The notes under the pieces are model-generated. The model made no database searches and was not told where the DNA came from. It was given only the letters and a program-made list of their open reading frames with translations. Positions 18,743 to 32,693 of a stretch of 32,861 bases of DNA are shown in pieces. This stretch comes from Candidatus Saccharimonadota bacterium. GTDB taxonomy: Bacteria; Patescibacteriota; Saccharimonadia; Saccharimonadales; Saccharimonadaceae. The position numbers and the translations under genes are program-made. Each line of letters opens with the position of its first letter. Positions within the stretch are counted from its first letter, which is position 1. Location of the stretch: the NCBI GenBank assembly GCA_030523715.1, contig JAUNHY010000010.1:1-32861 (forward strand), written 5' to 3'.

Positions 18743-18825
18743 AATACAGATTCACGCCTTTTGGGAGAGTGAAGGATCCTTTTCATCTTTAGTTTTTCAA
18801 ATAAAGCACAGGGGAGGTGTGCAAT

Positions 18826-19461
18826 ATGGCAGGAAAGATCATTCACCTGCAGCCGGCTCACTTCTCTTTCGAGAAGCGTGGCGGCTACAACGTAATTTTA
18901 CCCGAGATAATCGCGCAATTCTTCGAATACATGCGTGGAATCGGCCCGGATGCTTTTATCATAAAAAGCTATACCTTCTCAGAGGGTAACACCGGACCAT
19001 CCAGCACCGAGATCATGCGCGGTTGTGTACCAACAGAGGCAATCGACCGCAAATCTATTCGCCAAGCACAGCTCTCGCTCGAAGCAGAGCTCGACAATCA
19101 GGCCGAAGAAGCCAGTAAGCGCATCAAGGGGCGTACGTCCCGTGTATTCCAGAACCGCAACCACGGTAACGATGTCGTATACGTAAGATGCCGCAATGGC
19201 ATCATGGGCTGCGGTTGGTATGACAGCGCTCATACTGTCCGCAAAGGTCTGAAAATGGCCGCCTTCATGCTCTACGCACTCGGCACCATCAATGGCGACA
19301 CCGACGAAACGCTTCTCACCGCCATCTACAACTATTTGCCCTACGATAGTGAGCTCAGCTCAAGCGAAGCGGATAAAGCGACCGACATTATTGTCCGCGT
19401 CCTTACCGATAAAGCACTTCAGCAGAATAGCCCTTTCCGTCGGCCGTATGTGACTAACTAA
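18826..19461 (+). CDS. Orphan soluble protein, G/C-rich codons
   Basis: 211 residues, not recognised; no signal peptide or membrane helix. It is mixed alpha/beta in character, with Cys residues in RGCVPTE, YVRCRNGIMGCGWYD and a central basic stretch (ASKRIKGRTSRVFQNRNHG). The ATG at 18826 has a strong SD (GGGGAGGTG) 7-8 nt upstream; the in-frame GTG at 18817 lies inside the SD. Codons are richer in G and C than those of neighbouring mscL or argS. It has its own strong promoter, leader and terminator, so it is a one-gene unit. It may be a horizontally acquired or highly expressed accessory protein. Confidence 0.8.
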   Translation: MAGKIIHLQPAHFSFEKRGGYNVILPEIIAQFFEYMRGIGPDAFIIKSYTFSEGNTGPSSTEIMRGCVPTEAIDRKSIRQAQLSLEAELDNQAEEASKRIKGRTSRVFQNRNHGNDVVYVRCRNGIMGCGWYDSAHTVRKGLKMAAFMLYALGTINGDTDETLLTAIYNYLPYDSELSSSEADKATDIIVRVLTDKALQQNSPFRRPYVTN

Positions 19462-19469
19462 AGAAATAT

Positions 19470-19498
19470 CCCCGGCTGCATCCGCAACCGGGGTTTTT
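19470..19498 (+). terminator. Terminator of gene 18826
   Basis: CCCCGG (19470-19475) pairs with CCGGGG (19488-19493); inner GC pairs; then TTTTT. Confidence 0.85.
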
Positions 19499-19511
19499 CA
19501 TGCTATTTTTT

Positions 19512-19546
19512 CAAAAAAAGAATGCCCCGGCCGCAATTGGCCGGGG
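19512..19546 (-). terminator. Terminator of gene 19609
   Basis: 8-bp GC-only stem (CCCCGGCC 19525-19532 with 19539-19546). The A run at 19513-19519 gives a seven-T run on the minus strand. Confidence 0.85.
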
Positions 19547-19608
19547 ACTTTGTTGATGAGTGTTCGCCTAGGTTATTCAGGCAGTGGCCGAACTTCGACC
19601 GATGAATC

Positions 19609-20016
19609 CTATGCGCTCACGCGCAGCTCGTAACCCATCTCCTGGGCACAGGCTTTGGCCAGCTCGACGGCGCCAGGCATATCCTTGTAAACTTCCGCAA
19701 TCTCGCGGAGTTCCTTGATGCCCCTTGCGGTGACGATATCCTGAATCATGGCGCCATAATCCATGGCTTCGGACGCCTTCACGGGCACCACCATGCCGAT
19801 ATCATCATCGATAACGCCTTCGTACATGGCCACCTCCAGCATCTTCGTGGTGATGTCTGCCAACGCGCGTGCCTTTGGTGATTCATCTTCGAATCCGAGT
19901 ATTTTGGCATCATATGCCGCCAACTCTTCATCGGAGTCGGGGACGATGGAGAGCCCCATCACTCCCAGTTCGTTTCTTGCCGTCATTTTCTGGCGGACTT
20001 CCTTGGATTGAAACAT
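19609..20016 (-). CDS. Orphan small acidic protein, G/C-rich codons
   Basis: 135 residues, not recognised. Acidic and mainly helical (EELAAYDAKILGFEDE, IKELREIAEVYKD), with no signal peptide or membrane span. ATG 20016 is preferred, with GAGGT about 5 nt upstream; the in-frame GTG at 20022 overlaps that SD. The gene has a near-consensus promoter ~190 nt upstream, a long folded leader and its own GC-rich terminator. Codon choice (GCC, CTC, AAG) differs from argS next to it and resembles the other orphan units in this window. Confidence 0.78.
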   Translation of the reverse strand: MFQSKEVRQKMTARNELGVMGLSIVPDSDEELAAYDAKILGFEDESPKARALADITTKMLEVAMYEGVIDDDIGMVVPVKASEAMDYGAMIQDIVTARGIKELREIAEVYKDMPGAVELAKACAQEMGYELRVSA

Positions 20017-20204
20017 ACGCACCTCATCTTCCTGCCAGCTCTCCAGCCGGCTGTCTAATCTTAGCCCGTGGCGAGTGGCTTCGCTTAGGGCTAGATTTCC
20101 CTCCCCTCAGAGAAAACTAGCCCCAAACTGGATGCTATACGTATAAGAATAAACTCAATCAACGATTAAAGGTCATGACTTACTAGATATAATAAGCCAT
20201 AACC
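20017..20204 (-). promoter_or_regulatory. Folded leader of gene 19609
   Basis: A 12-bp stem with two G-U pairs (20204-20193 with 20182-20171) begins near the transcription start. Later a stem pairs GGGCTA-type arms at about 20095-20085 and 20065-20055, enclosing GCGA/TCGC. No known riboswitch is recognised. Confidence 0.55.
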
Positions 20205-20206
20205 CT

Positions 20207-20235
20207 ATTGTATCACACTTTGACTAAAAAGTCAA
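20207..20235 (-). promoter_or_regulatory. Strong promoter of gene 19609
   Basis: Minus strand: TTGACT (20235-20230), 17-nt spacer ending TGTGA, TACAAT (20212-20207). Confidence 0.82.
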
Positions 20236-20245
20236 GATGCTTAAG

Positions 20246-21928
20246 CTACATGCTCGCCGGAATCTCGATACCCAATAGATCAAGCGCCCGCGCCAACACG
20301 AAGTCTGCTTTGCGAATCACATCTAAACGCGCTGAGCGTTCTGCATCTTCTGCCGTCGAAATCGGCGTCTTTTCGTAATAGCGATTTAACTCTTGCGCTA
20401 GCTCAAAGGCAAAACCAGCAATCTTGTGCATCTCAAAGTTCTCGCATACACTCGCTACTATTTCTGGGAATTTCAAAAGCAACTGCAATACACTCTTCTC
20501 TGCCGCGAAATCATAGTCGGCATAATCCACCGACGCAAAATCAGCATTTTTCTCGAGAATCCTGCGCAAACGCACATCTGCATACTGACAGAATGGCCCC
20601 GATTGGCCCGTCAACGCAAAAATTTTATCTGGGTCGTACAAAATTCCCGTTTTACGATCTGCCACAAAGTCGGAATATTTAATCGCCCCCACCGCAATCT
20701 TCGCAATATCCTCATTGGCAAGTTTGCCACCAAAATTCTCGCGCACGCGTTTTTCGGCATCATTTAGCAGCTCTTCCATCAAAACTACCCCTTTACGCGA
20801 CGACATTTTTTCGCGCTTCCCCTCTGGGTTAATCTGGTCAATCGTGCCAAACCACAAGTGATAATTGTCTACCTTTAGGCCAATTTTCTTCGCTAACGCA
20901 AACAGCTGCTCAAAATAGAATTTCTGCTCCGCTCCCACCGCATAGACAATCTTATCCGGATGGATATTTTCCACGCGATACAGCATACAGCCAAGATCCG
21001 TCGTCGCATATAGCGCCGTACCATTGCTCTTAAGCATCAGCATTGGCACATCAATACCATACTCATCCAAGCGACAAATAATCGAACCATCCTCGTTACG
21101 TTCAAAAATACCATCTTTAACCAGTTGTTCAACTTTCTCTTTACCAAGCTCCACGAAACAACTTTCGCCCATCTCAAGATCAGTATTAATCCCTAGGCGC
21201 CCCATAATTTCATGCGTGTGCGCCATCGAAATCTCTTTAAAATGCTCAGACAACTTTACCGCTTCCGGGTCCTTCGCCTCGAGTTTCTTCAGCCAATCCT
21301 GTACCCGCTCGGCCAGTTCTTGCTTGCCAGCCTTTTCTTCTTCCTTCAAGTCGGCCTTCATCTGGATATAAATATTGCCAAGATCATAGATTGTTACCTT
21401 ATCAGCATCAATCCCCGAACGTTTAAAACCAGTAGCCCAAATCCCAAACGGCGTGCCCACGTCACCTAAGTGATTATCCGTCACCACTTTCCAGCCATTT
21501 GCTTCAAGCACTTTCTTGGCCGCCCAACCCTGTGTGCCTGGACGCAAATGCCCCACCGAATACGGCTTAGCGATATTTGTGCTCGGAAATTCCGAGATTG
21601 CTACCTTGCTGGCGCCAGAATAATTATCACCATAATGCTCCGACCAAGCCGCATCTAACTGCGCTTTCAAAGCTTTTCCGGATACGCCAATATTAATAAA
21701 ACCTGGCCCCGCAATTGACAATTCAAAACCACAATCCCCCAGTTTTTGGATAATTTCTTCGGCAATTTGACGCGGATTCTTACCAACTTGGCGCGCAAGA
21801 CGCATCGCCACATTCGTCGAATAGTCGCCTTCGATATCTGCCGGCACCGCCGCGAAATCAACCACGACATCATCAACGCCATATAAATCGTTGATAACTC
21901 CCTTGATTTGATCCTTAAAATTATCCAT
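20246..21928 (-). CDS. argS: Arginyl-tRNA synthetase
   Basis: 560 residues, class I synthetase that charges tRNA-Arg. The N-terminal ~85 residues form the Add-1 domain that binds the tRNA elbow (VAMRLARQVGKNPRQIAEEI). The HIGH-type motif is SVGHLRPGTQG, preceded by the substrate-binding SEFPSTNIAKP. The KMSKS-type loop is present as KREKMSSRKG, a full KMS signature that many ArgRS lack. The C-terminal anticodon-binding domain has the ALFA-like end (VLARALDLLGIEIPASM). ATG 21928 is leaderless; the in-frame ATG at 21937 touches the -10 box. Two tRNA-Arg genes lie in the same window. Confidence 0.97.
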   Translation of the reverse strand: MDNFKDQIKGVINDLYGVDDVVVDFAAVPADIEGDYSTNVAMRLARQVGKNPRQIAEEIIQKLGDCGFELSIAGPGFINIGVSGKALKAQLDAAWSEHYGDNYSGASKVAISEFPSTNIAKPYSVGHLRPGTQGWAAKKVLEANGWKVVTDNHLGDVGTPFGIWATGFKRSGIDADKVTIYDLGNIYIQMKADLKEEEKAGKQELAERVQDWLKKLEAKDPEAVKLSEHFKEISMAHTHEIMGRLGINTDLEMGESCFVELGKEKVEQLVKDGIFERNEDGSIICRLDEYGIDVPMLMLKSNGTALYATTDLGCMLYRVENIHPDKIVYAVGAEQKFYFEQLFALAKKIGLKVDNYHLWFGTIDQINPEGKREKMSSRKGVVLMEELLNDAEKRVRENFGGKLANEDIAKIAVGAIKYSDFVADRKTGILYDPDKIFALTGQSGPFCQYADVRLRRILEKNADFASVDYADYDFAAEKSVLQLLLKFPEIVASVCENFEMHKIAGFAFELAQELNRYYEKTPISTAEDAERSARLDVIRKADFVLARALDLLGIEIPASM

Positions 21929-21937
21929 GATACGCAT

Positions 21938-21966
21938 ATTTTACCATCTTTTTACCCCTGTCGCAA
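21938..21966 (-). promoter_or_regulatory. argS promoter, near-leaderless
   Basis: Minus strand: TTGCGA (21966-21961), 17-nt spacer ending TGG, TAAAAT (21943-21938). ATG 21928 follows after 9 nt. Confidence 0.7.
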
Positions 21967-21988
21967 ACAAATGCAAGCATAAAGACTA

Positions 21989-22017
21989 TTGACAATTTTG
22001 CCAAACTATGCTACAAT
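21989..22017 (+). promoter_or_regulatory. Strong promoter of orphan gene 22138
   Basis: TTGACA (21989-21994), 17-nt spacer ending TATGC, TACAAT (22012-22017). The predicted start is near 22024. Confidence 0.85.
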
Positions 22018-22023
22018 AAGACT

Positions 22024-22137
22024 ATAACTTTGCACAATTCTGTGCTAAAGTTATTTTTACGCTCTTCTCCGCATAGAGGAGAACGTAAGACACCCATTGT
22101 GTCGGAAACGACAAGAACTTTTAAAGGAGATGATCTG
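22024..22137 (+). promoter_or_regulatory. Folded leader of gene 22138
   Basis: It starts with a 13-bp hairpin with one bulge (ATAACTTT-GCACA, 22024-22036, with TGTGC-T-AAAGTTAT, 22041-22054) followed by TTTTT, so it looks like a terminator at +1. Next come TTCTCC/GGAGAA (about 22067-22085) and two overlapping options, GACAC/GTGTC or TGTCG-GAAA-CGACA (about 22089-22113). The SD AAAGGAG is at 22123-22129. Confidence 0.6.
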
Positions 22138-22674
22138 ATGAAGAACATCATCGAGAAGTCAAAGAAGTACATCGAACTCAGCGGCAAGGAAGCCGCCGGC
22201 TCCAAGCTGACCGCTGAAGAGGCTAAGCAGGTTCAGGAACTCCGCCGTGAGCTCTCTGCCCGCGGTCTCGACCCGCAGCATGTTGTGGGGCTCGATTACA
22301 GGGCCCTTGTTTTCGCTTATAAGTCCAAGGTGGCCACTTTCGTCGCGATGCGTGAGAACGACAAATACTATGCGTCTACCCGCTACTACCTGCAGTCCGT
22401 CGGCATTGAGCCCGACCAGCAGCGTCTCGGTCGTATGTTGGCTGAGTTCAAGCAGAACGCCAAGAGCATCGCCAAGAAGAAGACCACCAGGGGGGTCTGC
22501 ATGGCCCGCCAGGAACGCGAACGCGCCATCACGGCTATCGTCGCGGAAATTTCCGAGGAGGACGCCCAGCGCGCCGCCGAGGAACTGGCTGCCGAAGAAA
22601 AGGCCCGCCAGGAACGCGAGCGTATGTCCCGCGAAAGCATCACTGCCTTCGCCGCCGAAGCTTTCGGCGTCTAA
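22138..22674 (+). CDS. Orphan helical protein, G/C-rich codons
   Basis: 178 residues, not recognised. Strongly helical and charged; the C-terminal third is almost all Ala, Glu and Arg with two copies of ARQERER and likely forms a coiled coil. One cysteine (GVCMARQ). No signal peptide or membrane segment. ATG 22138 has an AAAGGAG 8 nt upstream; the frame is open to 22030 but that covers the leader hairpins. Codons favour C and G endings (CTC, AAG, CGC, GCC), unlike argS and pyrG on either side. One-gene unit with strong promoter, leader and terminator. Confidence 0.8.
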   Translation: MKNIIEKSKKYIELSGKEAAGSKLTAEEAKQVQELRRELSARGLDPQHVVGLDYRALVFAYKSKVATFVAMRENDKYYASTRYYLQSVGIEPDQQRLGRMLAEFKQNAKSIAKKKTTRGVCMARQERERAITAIVAEISEEDAQRAAEELAAEEKARQERERMSRESITAFAAEAFGV

Positions 22675-22742
22675 GCACCACTTGCGTCAGGGAGTGGCTT
22701 CCCTTTACCGATTTTCATCACCCTTTCTCATCTTCCACCGCC

Positions 22743-22791
22743 GGACTCCTGGAGTCCAGGGGCGACCGTTCCCGCCGGCCGCCCCATTTTT
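22743..22791 (+). terminator. Terminator region of gene 22138
   Basis: A small hairpin (GGACTC/GAGTCC, 22743-22757) precedes the terminator stem GGGGCG (22759-22764) with CGCCCC (22780-22785), inner CCG/CGG, then ATTTTT. A pyrimidine-rich spacer of ~65 nt lies between it and the stop codon. Confidence 0.8.
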
Positions 22792-22802
22792 AATGCCAAA
22801 AA

Positions 22803-24395
22803 TTATTTAACGCTCGCGCGAATTAAACCCTCAAACAACGGATGCGCACGATATGGTCGACTCCTAAACTCTGGATGCGCCTGCGTTGCAATAAAGTAGT
22901 CACATTTTGGCGCTTCCACATACTCCACCAATTTTCCATCTGGCGAAGTGCCAGACACTACCAAGCCACCTTTTTCAATTTCCTTCAAAAACTTCTGATT
23001 CACCTCATAGCGATGACGATGGCGTTCAATCACATCTTCGGCTCCGTACAACTTCTCCGCTAAACTGCCTTTCGTAAGATGGGCTGGATAGTCGCCTAAG
23101 CGCATTGTGCCACCAGTGCTTTCCTTGCCCTTCTGGCCTTCCATGATGTAAACCACATTCGCATCTGCCGGCGCATCAAATTCTTCCGAATTTGCATTCT
23201 TTACGCCACCCATACGCGCCGCCGCGATTACCGCCGTCTGCAAGCCAAGACAAAGTCCAAGATATGGCTTATTACGCTTCAGACAATAAGTCGCTGCCGC
23301 AATTTTCCCCTCTACGCCACGAATCCCAAATCCACCTGGCACCACGATGCCATCCACGCCCGCAAAATCTTTTTCGGTAGCTTTTTCGGCATCAATCCAA
23401 ATCGTATTCAGCTTTACGCCCGTCTTCCAGGCCGCCGCTTTCAAAGCTTCCGTCACTGACAAATATGTGTCCGTATTGTCGATGTATTTTGCGACCAAGC
23501 CAATCTTCACCTCTTTTTTCGGATCTGACTCGATATTCTTCACTAATTCTTCCCACTGACTCATGTCTGGATCGCCATGATCGATAAACCTCTCAAGTGG
23601 CGCCAATACGCCACCTTTTACGGCATTCAGTGGTACTTCGTAAACAGACTTTGCATCTGGCATCAAAACTACTGCATCTTCGGACACAGCACAAAATGTT
23701 GCCAACTTCGAGGCCACCTGTGGTGCCTTAATTACCTTATCGACATCCATGCGCGCCACTACCATATCTGGAATAATGCCAAATTCGCGCAAATCACGTA
23801 GCGAATTTTGCGCCGGTTTCGTCTTAAACTCCTGCGAGGTCGATAGCCAAGGCACATAGCATACATGCACATACAAGCAATTTTCGCGCCCCACGCGCGT
23901 ACCAAATTCACGAATCGCCTCCACAAAATGCGAACCTTCAAGATCGCCGATAGTACCACCAATCTCAACTATATGGACATCGGAACCAAAGTATTCTGCG
24001 TTATCAAGGAAAGTTTGCTGCACTAAGCCAGTTACGTGCGGCACCAACTGCACCGTGTGGCCACCAAACTCGCCTGCGCGCTCCGCATCAATCAATTTCT
24101 TATAAAGTTTTCCAGATGTCCAGATGGAGTTGCCGGTCATCTCTTCATCAAGGAAACGCTCATAATGACCCAAATCTAGGTCCGTCTCGGCGCCATCACG
24201 CGTCACAAAGCATTCGCCATGTTCGCGCGGATTCAAAAGTCCTGCGTCGACATTAAAATAAGGGTCGCATTTCTGCATCGAAACTTTTAGACCCTTCGCC
24301 TTTAATATTGCACCGATACTTGCCGCCATGATTCCCTTCCCAACACCGGAAATCACGCCCCCTGTCACAAAAATGTATTTCGTTTTTGTTTTCAT
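22803..24395 (-). CDS. pyrG: CTP synthase
   Basis: 530 residues. Converts UTP to CTP using ATP and glutamine. The N-terminal amidoligase domain (1-~265) has the P-loop-like VTGGVISGVGKGI and CDPYFNVDAG. The C-terminal class I glutamine amidotransferase (~290-530) shows GGFGIRGVEGK, the nucleophile Cys in YLGLCLGLQ and the catalytic His/Glu in THPEF-type AHPEFRSRP. A strong SD (AAGGAGG) precedes ATG 24395, unlike the leaderless neighbours. No other pyrimidine pathway gene is nearby, in line with a cell that salvages pyrimidines (inference). The promoter is unclear; TATAAA near 24428-24423 is one option. Confidence 0.97.
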   Translation of the reverse strand: MKTKTKYIFVTGGVISGVGKGIMAASIGAILKAKGLKVSMQKCDPYFNVDAGLLNPREHGECFVTRDGAETDLDLGHYERFLDEEMTGNSIWTSGKLYKKLIDAERAGEFGGHTVQLVPHVTGLVQQTFLDNAEYFGSDVHIVEIGGTIGDLEGSHFVEAIREFGTRVGRENCLYVHVCYVPWLSTSQEFKTKPAQNSLRDLREFGIIPDMVVARMDVDKVIKAPQVASKLATFCAVSEDAVVLMPDAKSVYEVPLNAVKGGVLAPLERFIDHGDPDMSQWEELVKNIESDPKKEVKIGLVAKYIDNTDTYLSVTEALKAAAWKTGVKLNTIWIDAEKATEKDFAGVDGIVVPGGFGIRGVEGKIAAATYCLKRNKPYLGLCLGLQTAVIAAARMGGVKNANSEEFDAPADANVVYIMEGQKGKESTGGTMRLGDYPAHLTKGSLAEKLYGAEDVIERHRHRYEVNQKFLKEIEKGGLVVSGTSPDGKLVEYVEAPKCDYFIATQAHPEFRSRPYRAHPLFEGLIRASVK

Positions 24396-24531
24396 TGGGC
24401 ACCTCCTTAATTAGCCCACCTTATTTTATAACCCTAGCATAAGCTATTTTTTATGCCCCCGCAAGAACTGATTTTTACAATTTTTATGCCTTAATACTTG
24501 CACAACTACACTATATCTAGCGTAGTATAGT

Positions 24532-24673
24532 AACATTCCAACACTATAATCGCGTGTCAGTATTGAACTACCGTTTTGGACATGCGCAGGCTACGGCCGA
24601 GCCTAAGCGCGAGTCGCCCGTAACGACAGGCCGACTCGACGCGGTCCAAACCGGCAGATTAATACTGAATGTT
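24532..24673. repeat. Long palindromic intergenic element, copy C
   Basis: Arms: TCAGTATT (24557-24564) with AATACTGA (24661-24668); CCGTTTTGGAC (24571-24581) with GTCCAAACCGG (24644-24654, one mismatch); outermost AACATTC (24532-24538) with GAATGTT (24667-24673). Core 24582-24643: ATGCGCAGG, P2 (GGC-TACG-GCC, 24589-24598), linker, P3 (GAGTCG/CGACTC base, CCCGT-AACG-ACAGG, 24617-24630). It occupies most of the 291-bp space between pyrG and the divergent gene at 24687, whose -10 box touches the right arm. Confidence 0.75.
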
Positions 24674-24678
24674 ATAAT
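24670..24678 (+). promoter_or_regulatory. Extended -10 promoter, leaderless
   Basis: TGT-TATAAT (TATAAT 24673-24678); ATG 24687 follows after 8 nt. It abuts palindrome C. Confidence 0.7.
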
Positions 24679-24686
24679 CATAAGTA

Positions 24687-25664
24687 ATGAAATGTTTCTA
24701 TTTTTCTAAATACCGTTTCTACAAGCCAGAGGTCAAAAAAGAGCTCAAATTCTTCTTAATGAGCGATATTCATTTCAGCCCTAAAGTTACTTCCAAAACT
24801 CTTGAAATTGTCGCTAAGAAAGCCGCCTCTGAAAAACCAAATTACATTCTTATTGCCGGCGACCTCGTCGATTCTCTTGATGCTATTCAAAGCAAAGCCA
24901 GCCTCAAGCGCCTTACAGCTTGGCTTTCCCATCTCGGCGAAATTGCCCCAACCCTTATCGTGCTCGGCAATCACGATTATTATCGCAAAAATCCCGAATA
25001 TTCCGGTGTCTTCTCTGGCAAGCGTCACTGGTACGCCGAAGAGCCGCATCTTCTCGCCGATGCCATCAAAGACATTGATAATGTCCGTCTGCTCGACAAC
25101 GATGTTTACGAAGACAAAAATGCCTACATTTTCGGATTTACCCAAAGTCCAGATTATTTTCAGTTCGACCGCGACGAAAACCGCACCACTTCTATATTCC
25201 ACCCTGGAAGCGAAGATAAAAGCATCCTACTTTACGACCTTCATCAACTCGACCACAAGCTAATCCGCGACTTACCAAAACATAAAGCCAAAATCGCTCT
25301 GCTTCACTCTCCTGTATTTTTGTTCGATTCTGAAGTATCCAGTTATCTTTACGAGTTCGACTTTTTCGTAACTGGCCACATGCATAGCGGCGTCGTTCCA
25401 CCAGTCGTGAATGACTTTTGGCGTTCCGATCGCGGACTCATGGCCCCAGGCAAACTCTTCTTCCCGCGCCATGCTCGCACCCACATTACCGAACCGTACC
25501 AAAAAACCATCGTCTGCGGCGCAATTTCTACTATCCAAGACAGCGCCAAGCCAATCACTTTTCTTAATGGCGCCTTCCCCATCAACATTGCCACACTCGA
25601 ATTTTCGCATCGCGAAACTCTCGAGCGTAAACCCGATATTAAGCACCAATATCTTAGTTTTTAG
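24687..25664 (+). CDS. Calcineurin-like metallophosphoesterase
   Basis: 325 residues. All metal-binding motifs of the family are visible: SDIHFSP (DxH), AGDLVDS (GDxxD), LGNHDYY (GNHD), LLHSP and GHMHSG (GHxH), so a two-metal phosphodiesterase/phosphatase centre should be active. The layout is close to the YkuE/YaeI-like group that acts on membrane-associated or nucleotide phosphoesters, but this protein has no N-terminal membrane helix and its substrate is unknown. Leaderless start at ATG 24687. Its last 11 nt overlap the 3' end of the convergent gene 25654. Confidence 0.9.
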   Translation: MKCFYFSKYRFYKPEVKKELKFFLMSDIHFSPKVTSKTLEIVAKKAASEKPNYILIAGDLVDSLDAIQSKASLKRLTAWLSHLGEIAPTLIVLGNHDYYRKNPEYSGVFSGKRHWYAEEPHLLADAIKDIDNVRLLDNDVYEDKNAYIFGFTQSPDYFQFDRDENRTTSIFHPGSEDKSILLYDLHQLDHKLIRDLPKHKAKIALLHSPVFLFDSEVSSYLYEFDFFVTGHMHSGVVPPVVNDFWRSDRGLMAPGKLFFPRHARTHITEPYQKTIVCGAISTIQDSAKPITFLNGAFPINIATLEFSHRETLERKPDIKHQYLSF

Positions 25665-26464: not shown

Positions 26465-26493
26465 ACTTATGCCACGAATAATGCCACAAAAAT

Positions 26494-26603
26494 AGCTTCA
26501 TAGTTAAAATTGTGTAGATTAGTAGTTTCTTCGACTCTCGCGCGGTTATTGACCGAGCGACGAGGAGAAAAACTGCTGAGATACGCAATTTTAACATGAA
26601 GCT
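26494..26603. repeat. Long hairpin next to tRNA-Arg; possible fourth palindrome (copy D)
   Basis: Arms of 18 bp with one bulged base: AGCTTCAT and GTTAAAATTG (26494-26512) pair with CAATTTTAAC and ATGAAGCT (26586-26603). Weaker pairing continues inward. The middle has CGGT-TATTG-ACCG (26543-26555) then GAGCGACGAGG, similar to P2 and linker of copies A-C, but the P3 hairpin is not clear. The right arm touches the tRNA CCA end. On the minus strand the arm is followed by ATTTTT, so it may also terminate the tRNA transcript. Confidence 0.6.
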
Positions 26604-26678
26604 TGGTAGGCCCGGCTGGAATCGAACCAACATTGTACCCTTAGAGGGGGTATGTCCTATCCGTTGAACGACGGGCCC
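26604..26678 (-). tRNA. tRNA-Arg (anticodon UCU) with C33
   Basis: 75 nt with encoded CCA. Acceptor GGGCCCG/CGGGCCT, D arm GTTC/GGAC, anticodon stem TACCC/GGGTA, T arm GTTGG/CCAGC around TTCGATT all pair. The 7-nt anticodon loop is CCTCTAA, giving anticodon TCT for AGA codons. Position 33 is C instead of the nearly universal T. Confidence 0.88.
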
Positions 26679-26704
26679 TTCCCCTATAATCTTACCATAA
26701 AAGA

Positions 26705-26713
26705 TGTTATAAT
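26705..26713 (+). promoter_or_regulatory. tyrS promoter
   Basis: TGT-TATAAT (TATAAT 26708-26713). A ~22-nt leader with SD AAAGGAG (26730-26736) precedes ATG 26742. Confidence 0.65.
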
Positions 26714-26741
26714 TATAAAGTTAATAACTAAAGGAGTATTC

Positions 26742-27956
26742 ATGAAATTATCCGAAGAACTCCAGTGGCGCGGTTTCGTAGCCGAGCACACACTGGACCA
26801 GATATCAGACCTAGACAAAGCTCCGCGTAATTTCTATTGGGGCACCGACCCTAGTGCCGATTCTCTTCATATCGGTCACCTCGCCGCCCTAATGATGTGC
26901 GCTTGCTTCGTTCGCCACGGTTATACTCCTTACTATCTTGTCGGCGGTGCTACCGGTCAAATCGGCGACCCAAAAGATACTACCGAGCGCGACCTCAAGG
27001 ATTTAAGCGAAATTGAGCAAAATAAAGCCGCTCTTGCCGCTCAAATTATTCGCGTTACGCATTCCCCTGCCGATACTCAGATTCTCGATAATAATGACTG
27101 GTTCAAAGATATCAAATTTTTGCCATTCCTCCGTGAAGTTGGCAAAGCTTTCAGTATGACGCAGCTCCTCGATCGTCAGTTCGTCCAAAAACGCATTGGC
27201 GAAGGCGGCTCCGGTATCAGTTACGCCGAGTTTAGTTACACCCTCATTCAAGGTTACGATTTTCTACACCTCTTCCGCACGCATAATATCGATCTCCAGC
27301 TTTGCGGCGCCGATCAATATGGCAACTGTACCTCAGGCATTCACCTCATTAAGCGTCTCGAGGACGCCAACGCCGATTGTTACTCTTGTCCACTTATCAT
27401 CGATAAAGTAACTGGCCGCAAGTTCGGCAAGTCCGAAGGCAACGCCGTCTGGCTCGATGCCAATAAAACCAGCATCTTCGATTTCTATCAGTTCTGGCTC
27501 AATCAGTCCGATGACGCGCTCGAAGATTACTTCAAATACTTCACCTTTATCATGCCAGAAGAGCTCAATCAAATTCTCGCCGAACATCGCGAAAATCCAG
27601 GTGCTCGCCTTGGCCAAAAACGCCTCGGCTTCGAGGTTACTAAGGTTGTTCACGGCGAAGAAGCCGCCAAACAGGCCGAAAAACTCACCGCCTTCCTCTT
27701 TGGCGATGGCAAAATCGAAGAATTATCTTCCGAAGACATCGAACTTCTCGCCAAGAGCTTCCCTACTACTACTGTCGGTAAGACTCTTGTTGATATCCTC
27801 ACCGAAACCGGCCTCGCCAGTAGTAAGGGCGAAGCTCGCAAACTCATCTCTGGTAACGCTATTTCCGTAAATGGCGCCAAGATTACCGAAGATTCCACAA
27901 TTGCCAGCCTTTCTCTTATCAAAAAAGGCAAAAATAAGTTCGCGCTTGTCCGCTAA
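26742..27956 (+). CDS. tyrS: Tyrosyl-tRNA synthetase
   Basis: 404 residues, class I synthetase charging tRNA-Tyr. The catalytic domain shows YWGTDPSADSLHIGHL with the HIGH motif, the tyrosine-binding CGADQYGNCTSG, and the KMSKS-type loop KFGKSEGNAVWL, where Lys-Phe-Gly-Lys-Ser replaces KMSKS as in the TyrRZ-like group. The C-terminal ~65 residues are an S4 RNA-binding domain (SSKGEARKLISGNAISVNGAKI, quoted in part as KGEARKLISGNAISVNG). ATG 26742 is set by the SD; the longer frame to 26652 runs through the promoter and into the tRNA gene. Confidence 0.97.
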   Translation: MKLSEELQWRGFVAEHTLDQISDLDKAPRNFYWGTDPSADSLHIGHLAALMMCACFVRHGYTPYYLVGGATGQIGDPKDTTERDLKDLSEIEQNKAALAAQIIRVTHSPADTQILDNNDWFKDIKFLPFLREVGKAFSMTQLLDRQFVQKRIGEGGSGISYAEFSYTLIQGYDFLHLFRTHNIDLQLCGADQYGNCTSGIHLIKRLEDANADCYSCPLIIDKVTGRKFGKSEGNAVWLDANKTSIFDFYQFWLNQSDDALEDYFKYFTFIMPEELNQILAEHRENPGARLGQKRLGFEVTKVVHGEEAAKQAEKLTAFLFGDGKIEELSSEDIELLAKSFPTTTVGKTLVDILTETGLASSKGEARKLISGNAISVNGAKITEDSTIASLSLIKKGKNKFALVR

Positions 27957-27968
27957 CTATTAGCATTA

Positions 27969-27997
27969 TTGACTTTTTTGGCCAAATGTGCTATAAT
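27969..27997 (+). promoter_or_regulatory. Strong promoter of orphan gene 28093
   Basis: TTGACT (27969-27974), 17-nt spacer ending TGTGC, TATAAT (27992-27997). The predicted start is near 28004. Confidence 0.87.
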
Positions 27998-27998
27998 G

Positions 27999-28092
27999 AA
28001 AAAGTGCGGTCATTTCGACCTGCACTTTTTCGTGTCTTAGACGCGAAAACGGTAACCCCGAGCACTTTTTTAGCCATGAAAGGAGCAGTTGT
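27999..28092 (+). promoter_or_regulatory. Folded leader of gene 28093
   Basis: AAAAAGTGC (27999-28007) can pair with GCACTTTTT at 28022-28030 (enclosing GGTC-ATTTC-GACC) or with a second copy, GCACTTTTTT, at 28062-28071. A GTC-TTA-GAC hairpin lies between. SD AAAGGAG is at 28079-28085. Confidence 0.55.
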
Positions 28093-28584
28093 ATGGATTC
28101 TTATTACCAGAACCTCGTCGATCAAGAAATTCAGCGCATGCGTGATAGAATCACTATCACCATGTACGAAGGCCACACCGTTACCACTGTGAACAAGGAT
28201 GGACGCACTGTGCGCTATTCCGAAGAGAGCGCCATCGAGGCCACCAACCGCGAAATCGCGGAGCGCTATGCCATCGGCAAGCAGCTCGAGCACTGCGTCG
28301 CTATCGACCCCGATACCGGTCATGCCTACGACCTGGATTTCCTCGCTCAGTTCTGCAAGAACATCTATGAACAGCCCTCGTCACCGCGCCCTCTCGAGAG
28401 TGCGCTCTACGTAATTGGCGAAACCATCGCACCGGCCAGCTATCCGCCGGAGGATCTGCAGCGCATCGTCGACATCTTCACCGACCTGCAGCAGCACGCC
28501 CATCTCAACATCTACCTCTATAATGAGCTTGGCCACGTCCTCCGCCGCAGCGCTATCGCGCACGAGCGTTACGCCACCGCTTAA
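28093..28584 (+). CDS. Orphan soluble protein, G/C-rich codons
   Basis: 163 residues, not recognised. Mildly acidic, without signal peptide or membrane span. The N-terminal half has a short beta-like segment (ITITMYEGHTVTTVNKDG) and then helices; the C-terminal half is mostly helical (EDLQRIVDIFTDLQQHAHL). ATG 28093 lies 7 nt after AAAGGAG. Codons end largely in C or G, in contrast to tyrS immediately upstream. One-gene unit with near-consensus promoter, folded leader and strong terminator, like genes 18826, 22138 and 28880. Confidence 0.8.
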   Translation: MDSYYQNLVDQEIQRMRDRITITMYEGHTVTTVNKDGRTVRYSEESAIEATNREIAERYAIGKQLEHCVAIDPDTGHAYDLDFLAQFCKNIYEQPSSPRPLESALYVIGETIAPASYPPEDLQRIVDIFTDLQQHAHLNIYLYNELGHVLRRSAIAHERYATA

Positions 28585-28593
28585 CATGGTTTC

Positions 28594-28622
28594 ATCCCCG
28601 CCCACCAACGGCGGGGATTTTT
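28594..28622 (+). terminator. Terminator of gene 28093
   Basis: 9-bp stem ATCCCCGCC (28594-28602) with GGCGGGGAT (28610-28618), then a T run. Confidence 0.92.
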
Positions 28623-28657
28623 CTATTCCGAAAATGCTTAAAAATAGCAAAATACTA

Positions 28658-28686
28658 TTGACTTTTTTGCAAAAGTGTGATAGTAT
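28658..28686 (+). promoter_or_regulatory. Strong promoter of orphan gene 28880
   Basis: TTGACT (28658-28663), 17-nt spacer ending TGTGA, TAGTAT (28681-28686). The predicted start at about 28693 coincides with the first base of a hairpin. Confidence 0.82.
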
Positions 28687-28692
28687 ATATAC

Positions 28693-28879
28693 GTACTCGC
28701 AAATGTGAGTACAGTACCTTAATTCTCAGAGTAAATTCACTATTAATTCGACATCTTGTCGAGCGTTAAGCGCATCAACCTCCTTAGTGCGTTTTATGCT
28801 CGACAAGAGCCCAACTTTGCATTCTTGCAAGTTGGAAGAATCTCTATCTTATAGAAAGGGCCCCTAGGAAGAAGGGGTA
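28693..28879 (+). promoter_or_regulatory. Long folded leader of gene 28880
   Basis: Four hairpins in order: GTACTCGC-AAAT-GTGAGTAC (28693-28712); an 11-bp stem TCTTGTCGAGC (28754-28764) with 28798-28808, enclosing CGCA/TGCG whose loop contains ACCTCCTTA (28778-28786); CCAACTT-t-TGCA type stem (28811-28821 with 28826-28835); and CCCCT/AGGGG (28861-28865 with 28873-28877), which covers the purine-rich SD region. The 295-bp gap before this gene is filled by the terminator, promoter and this leader. Confidence 0.65.
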
Positions 28880-29605
28880 ATGGTGAAAATCATGGAAAAG
28901 AAAGTGAAGACCCTGATCTACGTCGCTGCTGACGGCTCCAAGCTGGTCAATCCCGCTGCGTCCGTTCTGCCCGCTACGACCGATATGGTCATCACCAGCT
29001 ACACCGACGACAGCCTGGTCATCGATGCTCCGATCGTGGGCGAAGTGTCCACCGAACCGCAGCGTCAGACCGTCAACGAGCTGGTCGCCGACTGGCTGGG
29101 CAAGCGCAAGATGAAGATCAGCTCCGCGAAGGGCGATTTCCGCATTCGCGAGGAAGTCCGCAAGGAAGACGGCGACGAAATCCCGAGCCTGATCATCAAG
29201 GCTCCCGACGGCCGCCCCACTGACGAGCAGCTGCACGTCGTGGTCGGCAAGGCCATCAAGTGGCTGAATGCCACCGGCGTCAAGCCCGAAGCCAAGACCG
29301 AGCCCAAGCCCGAACCCAAGAAGGATGACGGCAAGAAGTCCACTCCGGCTCCGGCTCCCAAGCCTGACCCCAAGAACGACGATGGTCAGAAGTCCACTCC
29401 CGCACCGGCGCCGGATCCCAAGCAGGATGACGGCAAGAAGAGCGCTCCGGCTCCGGCTCCCAAGCCCGAACCCAAGAAGGATGACGGCAAGAAGAGCGCT
29501 CCGGCGCCCGATCCCAAGCCTGCGGCTCCGACCTACGCCACCAAGTGGGATCCCAAGAAGTCCATCGAGGAGAACCTCGATGCCATCATGGGCCCCGCCG
29601 ACTAA
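28880..29605 (+). CDS. Orphan protein with Lys/Pro/Asp repeat linker, G/C-rich codons
   Basis: 241 residues, not recognised. Residues ~1-130 form a folded-looking alpha/beta region (KTLIYVAADGSKLVNP, LIIKAPDGRPTDEQLHVVVG). Residues ~135-215 are about four tandem units of the pattern PxPKxDDGxKSxPAPAP, a flexible charged linker. A short C-terminal segment follows (TKWDPKKSIEENLDAIMG). No signal peptide or membrane span. Start ATG 28880, with GTG 28883 and ATG 28892 as in-frame alternatives; the SD is AGGAAG or AAGGGG. Codons are strongly C/G-ending (CTG, AAG, CCC). It is a one-gene unit. The tandem repeats are near-identical in DNA and could vary in number. Confidence 0.8.
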   Translation: MVKIMEKKVKTLIYVAADGSKLVNPAASVLPATTDMVITSYTDDSLVIDAPIVGEVSTEPQRQTVNELVADWLGKRKMKISSAKGDFRIREEVRKEDGDEIPSLIIKAPDGRPTDEQLHVVVGKAIKWLNATGVKPEAKTEPKPEPKKDDGKKSTPAPAPKPDPKNDDGQKSTPAPAPDPKQDDGKKSAPAPAPKPEPKKDDGKKSAPAPDPKPAAPTYATKWDPKKSIEENLDAIMGPAD

Positions 29606-29641
29606 TCCACCGCGCCTCTGGCGCAACCCTGAGAAATTCCA

Positions 29642-29675
29642 CAGCCACGCTTTGAAAGGAGCGTGGCTTTCTCTT
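29642..29675 (+). terminator. Terminator of gene 28880
   Basis: 8-bp stem AGCCACGC / GCGTGGCT with a 10-nt loop, followed by a pyrimidine-rich TTTCTCTTT. Confidence 0.65.
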
Positions 29676-29695
29676 TATGTCAATTCAAAAATCTT

Positions 29696-29702
29696 ATATA
29701 AT
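29696..29702 (+). promoter_or_regulatory. -10 box of HAD phosphatase gene
   Basis: A TATAAT-like hexamer (edge uncertain by one base) lies about 26 nt before ATG 29728; SD GGAGG (29718-29722) follows. Confidence 0.5.
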
Positions 29703-29727
29703 ATCTTTCATAACATTGGAGGATTTT

Positions 29728-30498
29728 ATGAAAAAAGTACTAGCATTCGACGTTGATCAGACCTTAAATATTGCCAAAACCCCAATCCCTCCAGAAATTG
29801 CCGAATTACTTACTAAATGTCTTGATCATTTCGAAATCTGCCCAATTTCTGGCCAAAAATACGACCAGTTCTTATATCAAATTGTTGATCAGCTCAAAGA
29901 TGCCACCCCAAAACAGCTCAGCCATCTCCATCTTTTCGTTGCTCAAGGCACTCAATACTATCGTTTTGACGCCAAGAAGAAAGAGTGGAAACAGGTTTAT
30001 AGCTACCCTCTCACCGATAAGCAGGTAAAAGAGATTACTACCGCTATCGAAACGGCCGCCAAAGAACTCGGCTACTGGGAAGAAGATAAGCTCGCAGAAG
30101 GCGACGAAATTATTGAAAACCGCCTCAGCCAAGTTACCTTCTCTGCTCTCGGCCAAAAGGCTGGCACCGAAGCTAAATATGCCTGGGACCCAGACTGCAA
30201 GAAACGCGAAGCTATCGTTAAACGCGCCAAAGAACTCGCCCCTGCTTACGATTACGAAATCGGCGGCACCACTTCCATCAACGCTATCACTCCAGGCATG
30301 AATAAAGTCTTCGGTATGACACACCTCATGGAAGAACTCAAAGTTGAAAAGAAAGACATCCTCTACTTTGGTGATATGACTCAGCCTGGCGGCAACGATT
30401 ATCCTGTTGTCCAAATGGGAGTTGACACCATTACCGTCCGCAATCACGAAGACACCGCCTATGCATTACGCGGTATCCTTGGCCTCGTTCAGAAATAA
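29728..30498 (+). CDS. HAD-IIB hydrolase related to phosphomannomutase
   Basis: 256 residues. HAD motif I is FDVDQTLN (nucleophile Asp and acid/base Asp), motif II lies in CPISGQKYDQF (Ser), motif III Lys in NKVFGMTHL, and motif IV is YFGDMTQPGGND. The last pattern, and the cap segment ENRLSQVTFSALGQKAGTEAK (quoted in part as QVTFSALGQKAG), resemble eukaryotic-type phosphomannomutases (GDxTxPGGND, NVSPIGR). It could therefore be a sugar-phosphate mutase or a sugar phosphatase; the sequence alone does not settle it. ATG 29728 has GGAGG 5 nt upstream; the frame open from 29677 overlaps the promoter. Confidence 0.85.
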   Translation: MKKVLAFDVDQTLNIAKTPIPPEIAELLTKCLDHFEICPISGQKYDQFLYQIVDQLKDATPKQLSHLHLFVAQGTQYYRFDAKKKEWKQVYSYPLTDKQVKEITTAIETAAKELGYWEEDKLAEGDEIIENRLSQVTFSALGQKAGTEAKYAWDPDCKKREAIVKRAKELAPAYDYEIGGTTSINAITPGMNKVFGMTHLMEELKVEKKDILYFGDMTQPGGNDYPVVQMGVDTITVRNHEDTAYALRGILGLVQK

Positions 30499-30510
30499 TT
30501 AAAACAATTA

Positions 30511-30519
30511 TGCTAAAAT
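30511..30519 (+). promoter_or_regulatory. Extended -10 promoter, leaderless
   Basis: TATGC-TAAAAT (TAAAAT 30514-30519); ATG 30526 follows after 6 nt. No -35 box. Confidence 0.7.
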
Positions 30520-30525
30520 AAGTGC

Positions 30526-31041
30526 ATGAATAAACATCTTTTTGCACGCATTTGTCGCGTTATTGGTCGGTTTTTGTTATGTGTTGGGACTATCTTTTTA
30601 ACTGGTTCCCTACTTCTCGCAGCCGCCCCAACGCTATTTGGTATTAATGATCAAAGTCAAGCTGCCTCAAATTTCTCTATCAAAAACTTTTTCAATCCTA
30701 GTAGCAGTTGCGGTTCAGTTACGCATATCGGCGCCACTAATCCTGCCTATTCCGCACTCGGCGTCGTCATCTTTATTGCCGTCATTACTATTTTTGGCGT
30801 CGTCCTGCATCATTACAACGACTCTATCCGTAAATATATCGCCAATATAGCAAAGCGCTTAAAGATTAGTATTCATTCTACAGAATTACTTTGCTCAACA
30901 TTCATCTGGGGCATGGTTACTGCAGTGACTCTCAATTATCTACCAATTTTTGCCCTTCTCGCCCTCACTGTCTTAATTATCAATAATCTTTTATTTATCT
31001 TCGCCTGGACATCTTACGGCTGCCGAAATTACACTCTCTAG
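30526..31041 (+). CDS. Small integral membrane protein of unknown function
   Basis: 171 residues, not recognised. Four hydrophobic segments: about 14-36, 76-96, 119-138 and 139-160 (the last two nearly continuous). A polar loop of ~40 residues between the first and second contains SSSCGSVTHIG and is probably extracellular. The N-terminus is basic (CRVIGRF). Leaderless start. It lies between the HAD gene and tpiA, each of which has its own promoter, so context does not suggest a role. Confidence 0.75.
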   Translation: MNKHLFARICRVIGRFLLCVGTIFLTGSLLLAAAPTLFGINDQSQAASNFSIKNFFNPSSSCGSVTHIGATNPAYSALGVVIFIAVITIFGVVLHHYNDSIRKYIANIAKRLKISIHSTELLCSTFIWGMVTAVTLNYLPIFALLALTVLIINNLLFIFAWTSYGCRNYTL

Positions 31042-31063
31042 CCACCCCAAAACTAGTCGCTTA

Positions 31064-31072
31064 TGCTAAAAT
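31064..31072 (+). promoter_or_regulatory. Extended -10 promoter of tpiA, leaderless
   Basis: TATGC-TAAAAT (TAAAAT 31067-31072), the same 11-mer as at 49-58; ATG 31079 follows after 6 nt. Confidence 0.75.
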
Positions 31073-31078
31073 ATTAGT

Positions 31079-31873
31079 ATGACTAGTCCTCGAAAGATTT
31101 ATATTATTGCGAACTGGAAGATGAATTTCACCCCCGGTGAGTCCAGCCTCTATTTGCATCGCCTTAGCAATCGCATCCAACCTTCACGCAATGTCCAGGT
31201 TGTGCTTGCGCCATCTACGGTTGCCCTGCAACCATTATCACTTCAGATTAATCGCCGCCAATTCAAATTGGCAGCACAGAATTTTTACTGGCGCGATTAT
31301 GGTGCATACACCGGCGAAACTTCCGTTTCTCAAATTCGTGGATTTGTAGATTATGCCATCGTCGGTCATTCCGAACGTCGCTATGTCTTTAACGAGACCG
31401 AAGAAGATATCGCTCAGAAAGTTGCCGCCGCTATCCGCAACGGTCTCACCCCTATTCTTTGCATTGGCGAAACTGCCCTTGAGCGCAAGGACGGCGAGAC
31501 AGCGTCAGCTATTTATAATCAGCTTACCAACGGTCTTCACGAAGTTAGTAAAGAGGACATTTCTAAAGTCATTATTGCCTACGAACCAGTCTGGGCTATT
31601 TCCAGCAATAAAAACGCCCGTCCAGCCCGTCCAGCCGACATTGCCGAGGCTGAGCTAATCATTCGTCAACATATCGCTAAGCTTTACAACAAGCAAATCG
31701 CCGAAGATATTGCTATTCTCTATGGCGGCTCCGTCAATTCTGACACCGCTGGCGGCTATCTCGACATTCCCGGCATCGACGGTCTTCTCATCGGTGGCGC
31801 TAGTTTGATAGCAGATTCATTCTGTGCTATTGTAGAGACAGCAAAGGGAAAGATTAATGAGCGACAATATTGA
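31079..31873 (+). CDS. tpiA: Triosephosphate isomerase
   Basis: 264 residues. Interconverts dihydroxyacetone phosphate and glyceraldehyde 3-phosphate in glycolysis. All active-site motifs are present: ANWKMN (Asn and Lys), IVGHSERR (catalytic His), IIAYEPVWAI (catalytic Glu), LYGGSVNSDTAG and GLLIGGASL (phosphate binding). Slightly longer than typical (~250) through an insertion near SSNKNARPARPADIAE in the flexible loop 6 region. The start is leaderless. The stop lies 17 nt inside the next gene, so the two are co-transcribed. Confidence 0.97.
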   Translation: MTSPRKIYIIANWKMNFTPGESSLYLHRLSNRIQPSRNVQVVLAPSTVALQPLSLQINRRQFKLAAQNFYWRDYGAYTGETSVSQIRGFVDYAIVGHSERRYVFNETEEDIAQKVAAAIRNGLTPILCIGETALERKDGETASAIYNQLTNGLHEVSKEDISKVIIAYEPVWAISSNKNARPARPADIAEAELIIRQHIAKLYNKQIAEDIAILYGGSVNSDTAGGYLDIPGIDGLLIGGASLIADSFCAIVETAKGKINERQY

Positions 31874-32645
31874 TTATGCAGAGTTAGACAAAGCTGTTAA
31901 TGAAGCCATCAAAAACCGCTCCAATACAGCTAAACCAACGACTAAACCAGTAGCAGCTGCGCCGGTTAAGCGCCCGCATGGTCAATTTATGGATATCATG
32001 GGCCCACAGCGCCCTGCTCCGCATATGGTTAAACCAGTCGCCAAAACCCCTGTCAAACCTGCTGTAAAACCAGTTGCTCGCCCAATCGCAAAGCCTGTCG
32101 CTACTAAAGTTATTACCGCACCGCGTCCGGCAATTGCTACTCGCAGCGCCAAAATCGGCACTGCTACCCGCCCTGTCCGCCCAAGCGTTGCTTCCCAAAT
32201 TCAGCAAAAACAGCAGCATGTTGCTGCAAAACCAGTCGCTAAACCAACGGTAAAACCAGTCACAAAGACCGTCGCTCCAGCTAAATCTGTCACCAAGCCA
32301 GCCCCAGCTACCGCTAAGAAGCCAGAGCCAAAGAAAGAGACACCAAACGCCAACAATTATTCTCTCGGCGTCCGTTCTCCATTCATGACTAATACCAAGG
32401 TCGAGAAACGCCCTCTCGGTACTGACATTCCAGAGACCAGCGCAACCGCCCTTCGTAGCACTAAGAATATTTATAGTTCCAAGAGTCCAAGCAAATCTTC
32501 TAAGGCCGACAAAAAGCACATGGTCACAGAAGCACCGAAGAAACATTCCGGTTGGCTCTGGACGCTCATCGTCTTATTAGTAATCGCTGCCGGCGGTGGT
32601 CTTGGCTACCTCGCCTACATCATGGTCTTTGCCAACCAGCTCTAA
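31857..32645 (+). CDS. Lys/Pro/Ala-rich protein with C-terminal membrane anchor
   Basis: 262 residues, not recognised. Residues ~20-160 are low complexity with many KPVAKP/KPTVKP-like repeats. A short conserved-looking motif (NNYSLGVRSPFMTNT) follows near 167-181. One membrane helix at about 235-257 (WLWTLIVLLVIAAGGGLGYL) near the C-terminus makes it a tail-anchored-like protein with a cytoplasmic or wall-spanning extended arm. The very basic disordered region could bind nucleic acid or acidic polymers (inference). The ATG overlaps the tpiA end by 17 nt; AAGGG lies ~9 nt upstream. Confidence 0.75.
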   Translation: MSDNIDYAELDKAVNEAIKNRSNTAKPTTKPVAAAPVKRPHGQFMDIMGPQRPAPHMVKPVAKTPVKPAVKPVARPIAKPVATKVITAPRPAIATRSAKIGTATRPVRPSVASQIQQKQQHVAAKPVAKPTVKPVTKTVAPAKSVTKPAPATAKKPEPKKETPNANNYSLGVRSPFMTNTKVEKRPLGTDIPETSATALRSTKNIYSSKSPSKSSKADKKHMVTEAPKKHSGWLWTLIVLLVIAAGGGLGYLAYIMVFANQL

Positions 32646-32657
32646 ATCTGATATAAT
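32629..32657 (+). promoter_or_regulatory. Promoter of tRNA-His / tRNA-Gly
   Basis: TTGCCA (32629-32634), 17-nt spacer ending TGA, TATAAT (32652-32657). It overlaps the end of the 31857 gene; the start is expected near 32664. Confidence 0.75.
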
Positions 32658-32658
32658 C

Positions 32659-32693
32659 TAGACACGTCAATCTGTTCTGACGTGTCTATTTTT
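32659..32693 (+). terminator. Hairpin terminator overlapping tRNA transcription start
   Basis: 11-bp stem TAGACACGTCA (32659-32669) with TGACGTGTCTA (32678-32688), then ATTTTT. It should end the 31857 mRNA. The tRNA transcript would begin inside its left arm and carry a shortened hairpin. Confidence 0.82.

Follow-up and report, generated by a model that had tools for sequence, protein, structure and literature searches.

Why should hairpins begin at, or within a few nucleotides of, the predicted transcription starts of six promoters in one stretch of a Candidatus Saccharibacteria genome? The window (the whole stretch of 32,861 nucleotides that was analysed) carries such hairpins behind consensus-like promoters at 18714+, 21989+, 27969+, 28658+, 32629+ and 20235−, just as the original prediction had them; five fold well and the one at 18714+ is weak. 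The T runs it described after the hairpins at 22024, 27999 and 32659 are likewise present. Transcription starts are predictions throughout, and simple scripts of our own supplied the gene calls and promoter scores. A search of the window with Rfam returned four tRNAs and nothing else at gathering score. The features discussed below are as follows.

18714..18742, +, promoter TTGACA-17-TAAAAT with extended −10 TG, of gene 18826 (ortholog promoter scored at 17/17 related loci)
18749..18775, +, weak start-site hairpin (−5.2 kcal/mol, shuffle p 0.57)
18826..19461, +, orphan protein of 211 aa, genus-restricted
20207..20235, −, promoter TTGACT-17-TACAAT, directly past the ArgRS stop
20170..20205, −, start-site hairpin with a 16-bp stem (26-species set)
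20056..20128, −, conserved leader element R1, with long stem P1 and a GGGGAG apical loop
19609..20016, −, orphan protein of 135 aa, high GC3
21989..22017, +, promoter TTGACA-17-TACAAT, extended −10
22024..22054, +, start-site hairpin, then a T run
22138..22674, +, orphan protein of 178 aa, helical model
27969..27997, +, promoter TTGACT-17-TATAAT, extended −10, exact-pattern
27998..28031, +, start-site hairpin with a T run (TTTTT shared with an overlapping second hairpin)
28093..28584, +, orphan protein of 163 aa, GC3 0.72 (6/45 genus genomes)
28594..28618, +, strong terminator-like hairpin ending gene 28093
28658..28686, +, promoter TTGACT-17-TAGTAT, extended −10
28690..28716, +, start-site hairpin
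28880..29605, +, orphan protein with Pro/Lys/Asp repeats, GC3 0.80
29643..29668, +, strong terminator-like hairpin ending gene 28880
32629..32657, +, promoter of tRNA-His/tRNA-Gly, overlapping the upstream gene's end
32659..32688, +, start-site hairpin with a T run ahead of tRNA-His, clade-specific

The 889-kb genome containing the window has 51 near-consensus extended −10 promoters versus 0 in the control. Their predicted +1 lies seven bases past the −10 box and is marked by a purine-T initiator signature (110 promoters; A.66 and G.22 at position 7, T.61 at position 8). Our unbiased, exact-pattern set comprises 50 of these 51 whole-genome matches. The promoter at 27969 is the only exact match in the window, the other five being off by at least one base.

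Folding against shuffled leaders, carried genome-wide as the original prediction had envisaged, revealed an enrichment at +1 that extends beyond the window. Seventeen of the 50 exact-pattern leaders beat 95% of their shuffles (p ≤ 0.05; 2.5 expected; 60–100 shuffles for each p value), 35 have a start-site hairpin of ≤ −8 kcal/mol, and the mean energy is −9.69 versus −6.31 for shuffled sequence. At a control start 28 nt further in, 16/50 reach ≤ −8 and 7/50 p ≤ 0.05, with a mean of −6.48 versus −6.21 shuffled. Among promoters scoring ≥ 12.5 in a 387-kb genome sample, 25/35 have a start-site hairpin of ≤ −8 and 14/35 exceed 95% of dinucleotide shuffles; the profile of hairpin starts peaks 6–12 nt past the −10 box, a bin that holds 21/35. 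When leaders were folded from +1 only, 36/50 hairpins were ≤ −7; pairing began at +1 to +3 in 19 of them and at +1 to +5 in 27. Given the predicted +1, the stem thus lies within a few nt of the 5′ end, as in leaders of the ompA/aprE type. The word GYACNTTA appears to be conserved near hairpin ends and ahead of ribosome sites.

Unusual base composition in these genes and their leaders might yield hairpins as a functionless by-product, since hairpin strength tracks GC3 in the gene that follows (Spearman −0.48) and even shuffled leaders have a mean of −6.3. However, the hairpins exceed dinucleotide shuffles that keep composition, only the start site shows the effect, with no equal enrichment at non-start positions, and ortholog hairpins survive sequence change. 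We therefore regard a by-product as very unlikely.

Among relatives, 28/100 promoters scoring ≥ 12.5 reach p ≤ 0.05. The effect is weak in the sister genus (7/30 versus 5/30 at the control position, in 30 of 73 matches), and G035 and G020 have the hairpin at few strong promoters (1/6 and 1/4). Orthologous leaders were folded at individual loci, bearing in mind that related species are not independent. Downstream of argS, where the promoter was found in 27/47 sequences and 26 were used (L073 was excluded because its promoter match precedes mscL), the 26 species gave a mean of −11.49 versus −5.13 shuffled, with 18/26 at p ≤ 0.05. The ortholog set of gene 22138 (9 sequences) averaged −11.16 versus −5.88 (6/9 at p ≤ 0.05), and that of gene 18826 (18 sequences) −9.13 versus −5.74 (7/18 at p ≤ 0.05; 13/18 ≤ −8). 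For tRNA-His, 30 loci gave 27 distinct leaders, of which 19 contained a scored promoter and 10 the hairpin. Orthologous hairpins persist while both arms change sequence, which argues for selection on structure and not on a DNA word; evolutionary evidence of this kind suggests that structure would matter over stem sequence, as in ompA and aprE. A test for strand asymmetry in the stems counted 20 G-U versus 15 A-C mismatches (p 0.50), in a search that admits chance mismatches.

Operators often sit as inverted repeats just past the −10 box, a position that would suit the palindromes as DNA sites for a dimeric repressor at the start site. Yet the argS-downstream hairpins lose most of their pairing when arms are swapped between species (−14.35 with their own arms versus −5.03), and stems differ among loci within one genome. 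A shared operator was rejected, as no palindromic sequence is common to the stems, and we consider repressor binding highly improbable.

The original prediction also offered promoter-proximal termination, in which most transcripts would abort at 30–40 nt; a variant is that read-through terminators of the upstream gene overlap the next promoter. T runs do occur at 22054, 28026 and 32689, and a same-strand upstream gene stops just ahead of the promoters at 27969, 20235 and 32629. In relatives, 11/55 start-site hairpins have TTTT in the tail versus 0–2 of 42–57 at each downstream control; the upstream control position, where neighbours' terminators lie, gave 3/9. In this genome, however, only 2/26 start-site hairpins have such a tail, and at 21989 and tRNA-His the orthologs keep the stem and drop the T run. 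A T run directly after the hairpin, the mark of an intrinsic terminator, is thus no overall property; the window has it at three sites, at two of which it is not conserved. The upstream gene is divergent at 18714 and 21989, which leaves nothing for a read-through terminator to stop there. Since T runs are rare and mostly not conserved, a universal terminator was rejected and promoter-proximal termination is unsupported as the common function; as an explanation of the hairpins it is quite unlikely. Local termination is possible at 18714, where one clade of orthologs retains the T run.

A covarying RNA element, R1, lies in the leader of the gene that follows argS and was found in 31/45 genus genomes. 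Both sides changed in 10/13 pairs of its P1 stem, and covariation was.562 versus.307 shuffled and at most.156 when slid. A2 draws on 23 of the 26 argS-downstream sequences; L067, L069 and L076, whose core could not be made out by eye, were omitted. No Rfam family matched this leader, and a relaxed threshold gave chance-level matches, the best far below cut-off. Each leader might be a regulatory RNA specific to its locus (a riboregulator, an attenuator or a protein-binding leader), with the start-site hairpin as one arm of a larger switch. P1 covariation and the spread of R1 fit this, as does the T run common to the start-site and next hairpins at 27998–28031 and in L063/L065, an arrangement expected of mutually exclusive folds; so too does the hairpin kept together with its T run in one clade of the 18714 orthologs (set B). 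Against it, the hairpins precede unrelated genes and are followed by unrelated structures, no known regulatory RNA in Rfam matches, and the own-genome sample yielded R1 only once. That single copy also led us to reject one RNA family for all leaders. We hold regulatory RNAs to be a possible but doubtful explanation.

With moderate confidence we propose instead that the hairpins are 5′-terminal stabilizing stem-loops that act independently of sequence and block 5′-end-dependent decay, as in ompA and aprE. This fits best because of the start-site position, the structure kept despite sequence change, the many unrelated stems and the RNase J and RNase Y genes. The latter are present in 20/21 (RNase J family) and 21/21 (RNase Y) genus genomes, so that at gene level the cell has the 5′-end-dependent ribonuclease such a stem-loop would counter. 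Precedents are the 5′ stem-loops of ompA, papA and aprE, cited in passages of PMC3997798 and PMC7509114; Emory 1992 and Hambraeus 2002 are among the primary papers that the reviews cite. Once RNA polymerase had initiated at such a near-consensus extended −10 promoter, the start of the RNA would fold immediately into a stem of roughly 7–16 bp that buries the 5′ end. Decay via RNase J and 5′-end-sensitive entry of RNase Y would be hindered, and a terminator hairpin would seal the 3′ end of most units, each a single gene. The combination of promoter, start-site hairpin and terminator would yield abundant, long-lived mRNA of fast-evolving, mostly orphan genes. In this scheme the data show the positions, the enrichment, the structure conserved amid changing sequence, the association with a gene class and the presence of the nuclease genes; where transcription starts, how stable the RNA is and that it is highly abundant are what we infer.

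Several observations do not sit easily with a protective stem-loop. A hairpin of ≤ −8 is absent from 15/50 near-consensus promoters, which makes the word "common" in the original prediction too strong; the prediction is partly supported, its decay-blocking part being the best fit. Strong promoters of the RNase J gene and of several housekeeping genes lack the hairpin, and many leaders have structure beyond what a cap requires. Pairing begins only at +6 to +9 in 9/36 hairpins folded from +1, a single strand that may suffice for 5′ entry. The weak effect in the sister genus and the scarcity of hairpins at strong promoters of G035 and G020 also count against it.

The near-consensus promoters mark a distinct gene class, described here for the first time: single, terminator-closed, mostly orphan genes with unusually GC-rich third codon positions. 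A terminator-like hairpin ends 20/23 class genes versus 127/302 genes with GC3 < 0.55. Translational selection was rejected as the cause of high GC3, as housekeeping genes with strong promoters lack the same bias. No homology was seen among class proteins (12% mean column identity in A3, 22 proteins hand-picked for the high GC3 of their genes, the majority of which have such promoters), and only three PHROG families were matched, by one member each. The 18826 protein, whose family occurs in 5/148 genomes, all within one genus, has no Pfam match, and no PDB structure matched its model (pLDDT 88.8) at E ≤ 0.001. Most of its top-ranked matches had a roadblock-like fold (Ragulator, MglB), which was set aside at a query TM of about 0.2–0.34. 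We also considered a genus-private expression system of about fifty insulated single-gene units, mostly fast-evolving orphans with distinct codon use, each with a near-consensus extended −10 promoter and a terminator and most with a hairpin-capped structured leader. Acting in trans, an RNA-binding factor or a nuclease regime reserved for these units would read the leader and set their joint output, for example during host attachment; this we think unlikely.

We found no paper on Saccharibacteria start sites or 5′ hairpins in the literature outside subscription journals. Stabilizing 5′ stem-loops are known mRNA by mRNA; here an entire promoter class of one genus of ultrasmall gut bacteria appears to share them as a design. 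The set yields a list of orphan genes that are probably highly expressed, includes one covarying RNA element without an Rfam match, and offers ready-made strong promoters and leaders for Saccharibacteria, in which transcriptional reporters and inducible expression are still to be developed, according to a passage of the review PMC11665869.

Riboswitches and structured cis-regulatory leaders in Rfam likewise show covariation in leader stems that precede a gene, but the start-site hairpins have neither an Rfam match nor a consensus sequence. Attenuators and intrinsic terminators share the GC-containing hairpin, sometimes with a T run; here the hairpin starts at +1 and the T run is usually missing or unconserved. 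Phage morons are single genes of atypical composition with their own promoter and terminator, and in this the class genes would resemble them, although some class genes occupy conserved chromosomal places across the genus. In E. coli ompA and papA and B. subtilis aprE, a comparable stem-loop lies at or near the mRNA 5′ end, upstream of a strong ribosome site, in cells that likewise have 5′-end-sensitive nucleases. Those are single mRNAs studied individually, whereas the present case comprises many unrelated leaders behind one promoter class in a lineage of Patescibacteria.

All six hairpins that the original prediction placed at transcription starts in the window are present, and each begins at or just past the expected start site with an extended -10 (TG) promoter upstream; the 18751 hairpin is weak and non-significant taken alone. 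The observation is confirmed, and it generalises. The source genome (889 kb in 20 contigs, ∼ 95% complete, the window being contig 20) encodes in this window an ArgRS with at most 84% identity to rumen and gut Candidatus Saccharibacteria, and a 1146-aa reading frame (3645-7085, minus strand) without an NCBIfam match.

Hairpin strength at each position was taken as the minimum free energy computed for every possible closing pair. In 387 kb of the genome (the window and 20 stretches), promoters scoring at least 12.5 show a hairpin peak 6-12 nt past the -10 box, where -8 kcal/mol is reached in 21/35. Folding against dinucleotide-shuffled leaders, the check proposed originally, gave p ≤ 0.05 for 14/35 promoters here and 28/100 in relatives. 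An exact pattern picked blind to hairpins (TTGACW, a 17-nt spacer ending in TGN, TATAAT) has 51 matches in the whole genome and none in the reversed control. The signature of these 51 promoters is TTGACTTTTT-N9-GTGTGCTATAAT; most other families of the order have few near-consensus promoters of this kind. Enrichment at the start site holds genome-wide: 17 of 50 exact-pattern leaders have p ≤ 0.05 (2.5 expected; binomial 1.5e-10) and 35 reach -8 (mean -9.69 versus -6.31 shuffled), compared with 7 and 16, respectively, when the same leaders are folded from a control start 28 nt further in (mean -6.48 versus -6.21). The predicted +1 was placed by an initiator signature seen in 110 such promoters, A or G at position 7 past the -10 box (88%) and T at position 8 (61%). 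Folding from this +1 only yields a hairpin of -7 or below in 36/50, with the first paired base at +1 to +3 in 19 and at +1 to +5 in 27 of the 36.

Across 148 genomes, the promoter pattern occurs 23-51 times per genome in five genomes of the same genus, 22-39 times in five of one sister genus, 0-17 times in further genera of the family, and in other families mostly 0-4 times (maximum 15). Hairpin enrichment is clear in the source genome and weak in the sister genus (7/30 versus 5/30 at the control position); G035 and G020, both sampled within the genus itself, show a low level. The start-site hairpin thus belongs to this lineage, to a varying degree, and does not come with every strong promoter.

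Three sets of orthologous leaders were compared. Downstream of ArgRS (26 species) the mean is -11.49 versus -5.13 shuffled (p ≤ 0.05 in 18/26); a 5' arm folded with its own 3' arm gives -14.35, with another species' arm -5.03. Leaders of the orphan-protein genes 18826 (n = 18) and 22138 (n = 9) average -9.13 versus -5.74 and -11.16 versus -5.88 (p ≤ 0.05 in 7/18 and 6/9). The tRNA-His leader hairpin, found in 10/27 distinct leaders, carries paired substitutions and in some lacks the T run. Hairpins kept while sequence changes point to an RNA structure rather than a DNA operator. The tRNA-His/tRNA-Gly promoter (32629-32657) overlaps the preceding gene at its end, a layout also seen in hairpin-less relatives.

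The argS-downstream gene has a further leader element:

20056-20128, minus strand: long stem whose apical loop reads GGGGAG, located after the start-site hairpin in the leader

Among 23 species, both sides change in at least one species for 10/13 pairs of this stem, 93.6% of cells pair, and the covariation score is.562 versus.307 shuffled and ≤.156 slid. Its model, R1, matches in 31/45 genus genomes, mostly as a single copy adjoining argS; an Rfam search found no matching family. Since the downstream protein is far more variable than the leader, the element may have a regulatory role of its own. In G035 and G036 the element sits close to a relative of gene 18826, elsewhere than at argS.

Start-site hairpin promoters are associated with a class of orphan genes. 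In a 349-gene sample of the genome, strong promoter and hairpin coincide in 13/20 genes with GC3 ≥ 0.65 versus 13/313 with GC3 < 0.58 (odds ratio 43). Near relatives give 16/29 genes with GC3 > 0.15 above the median versus 6/308 below the median; in the mid group the link is weak (2/8 versus 7/195). Codon bias in the class is toward C- and G-ending codons and is absent from strong-promoter genes of ordinary GC3. The gaps upstream of class genes are wide (median 172 versus 39), and these genes usually end in a terminator-like hairpin (20/23 versus 127/302). A Pfam search of 22 high-GC3 proteins, hand-picked by the analyst, matched only seven families, one protein each, of which Bax1-I, DegV, YkuD and SH3_3 are convincing. 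The 18826 protein is found in 5/148 genomes of the order, all of the same genus; a diverged second copy lies in the source genome (L022:1185-1475, minus strand). The genes at L022:10827 and L012:13385 encode similar membrane or secreted proteins, and their leaders have in common a second hairpin (ATTACTGC...GCAGTAGGAAG) unlike other class leaders. The word GYACNTTA recurs right past the start-site hairpin or immediately 5' of the ribosome site.

Promoter-proximal termination, the other function originally suggested, is not general, as TTTT follows only 2/26 start-site hairpins here and 11/55 in relatives. The latter share nevertheless exceeds that at downstream control positions; some of these hairpins, mainly those of the 18714-promoter orthologs in one clade, may thus be genuine attenuators. 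Within that clade the promoter spacer (GCAATCTGTGC) is near-identical and a hairpin with a T run lies at about +11; spacer and hairpin together look like a regulated site shared by the divergent mscL side.

Cap-like protection of the mRNA 5' end is the best-supported, if unproven, reading. Position, enrichment, kept structure and the presence in genus genomes of genes for RNase J (20/21) and RNase Y (21/21) speak for this part of the original prediction; what counts against it is that 15/50 strong promoters have no such hairpin and that some hairpins begin at +6 or later. With the 5' end paired into a stem, decay enzymes that require a free end would be kept from starting, and the mRNAs of hairpin-led genes would consequently last. 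Protection by a 5' stem is known from the ompA and aprE leaders (reviews PMC7509114 and PMC3997798), and the start-site hairpins reported here are predicted to follow the same protective logic.
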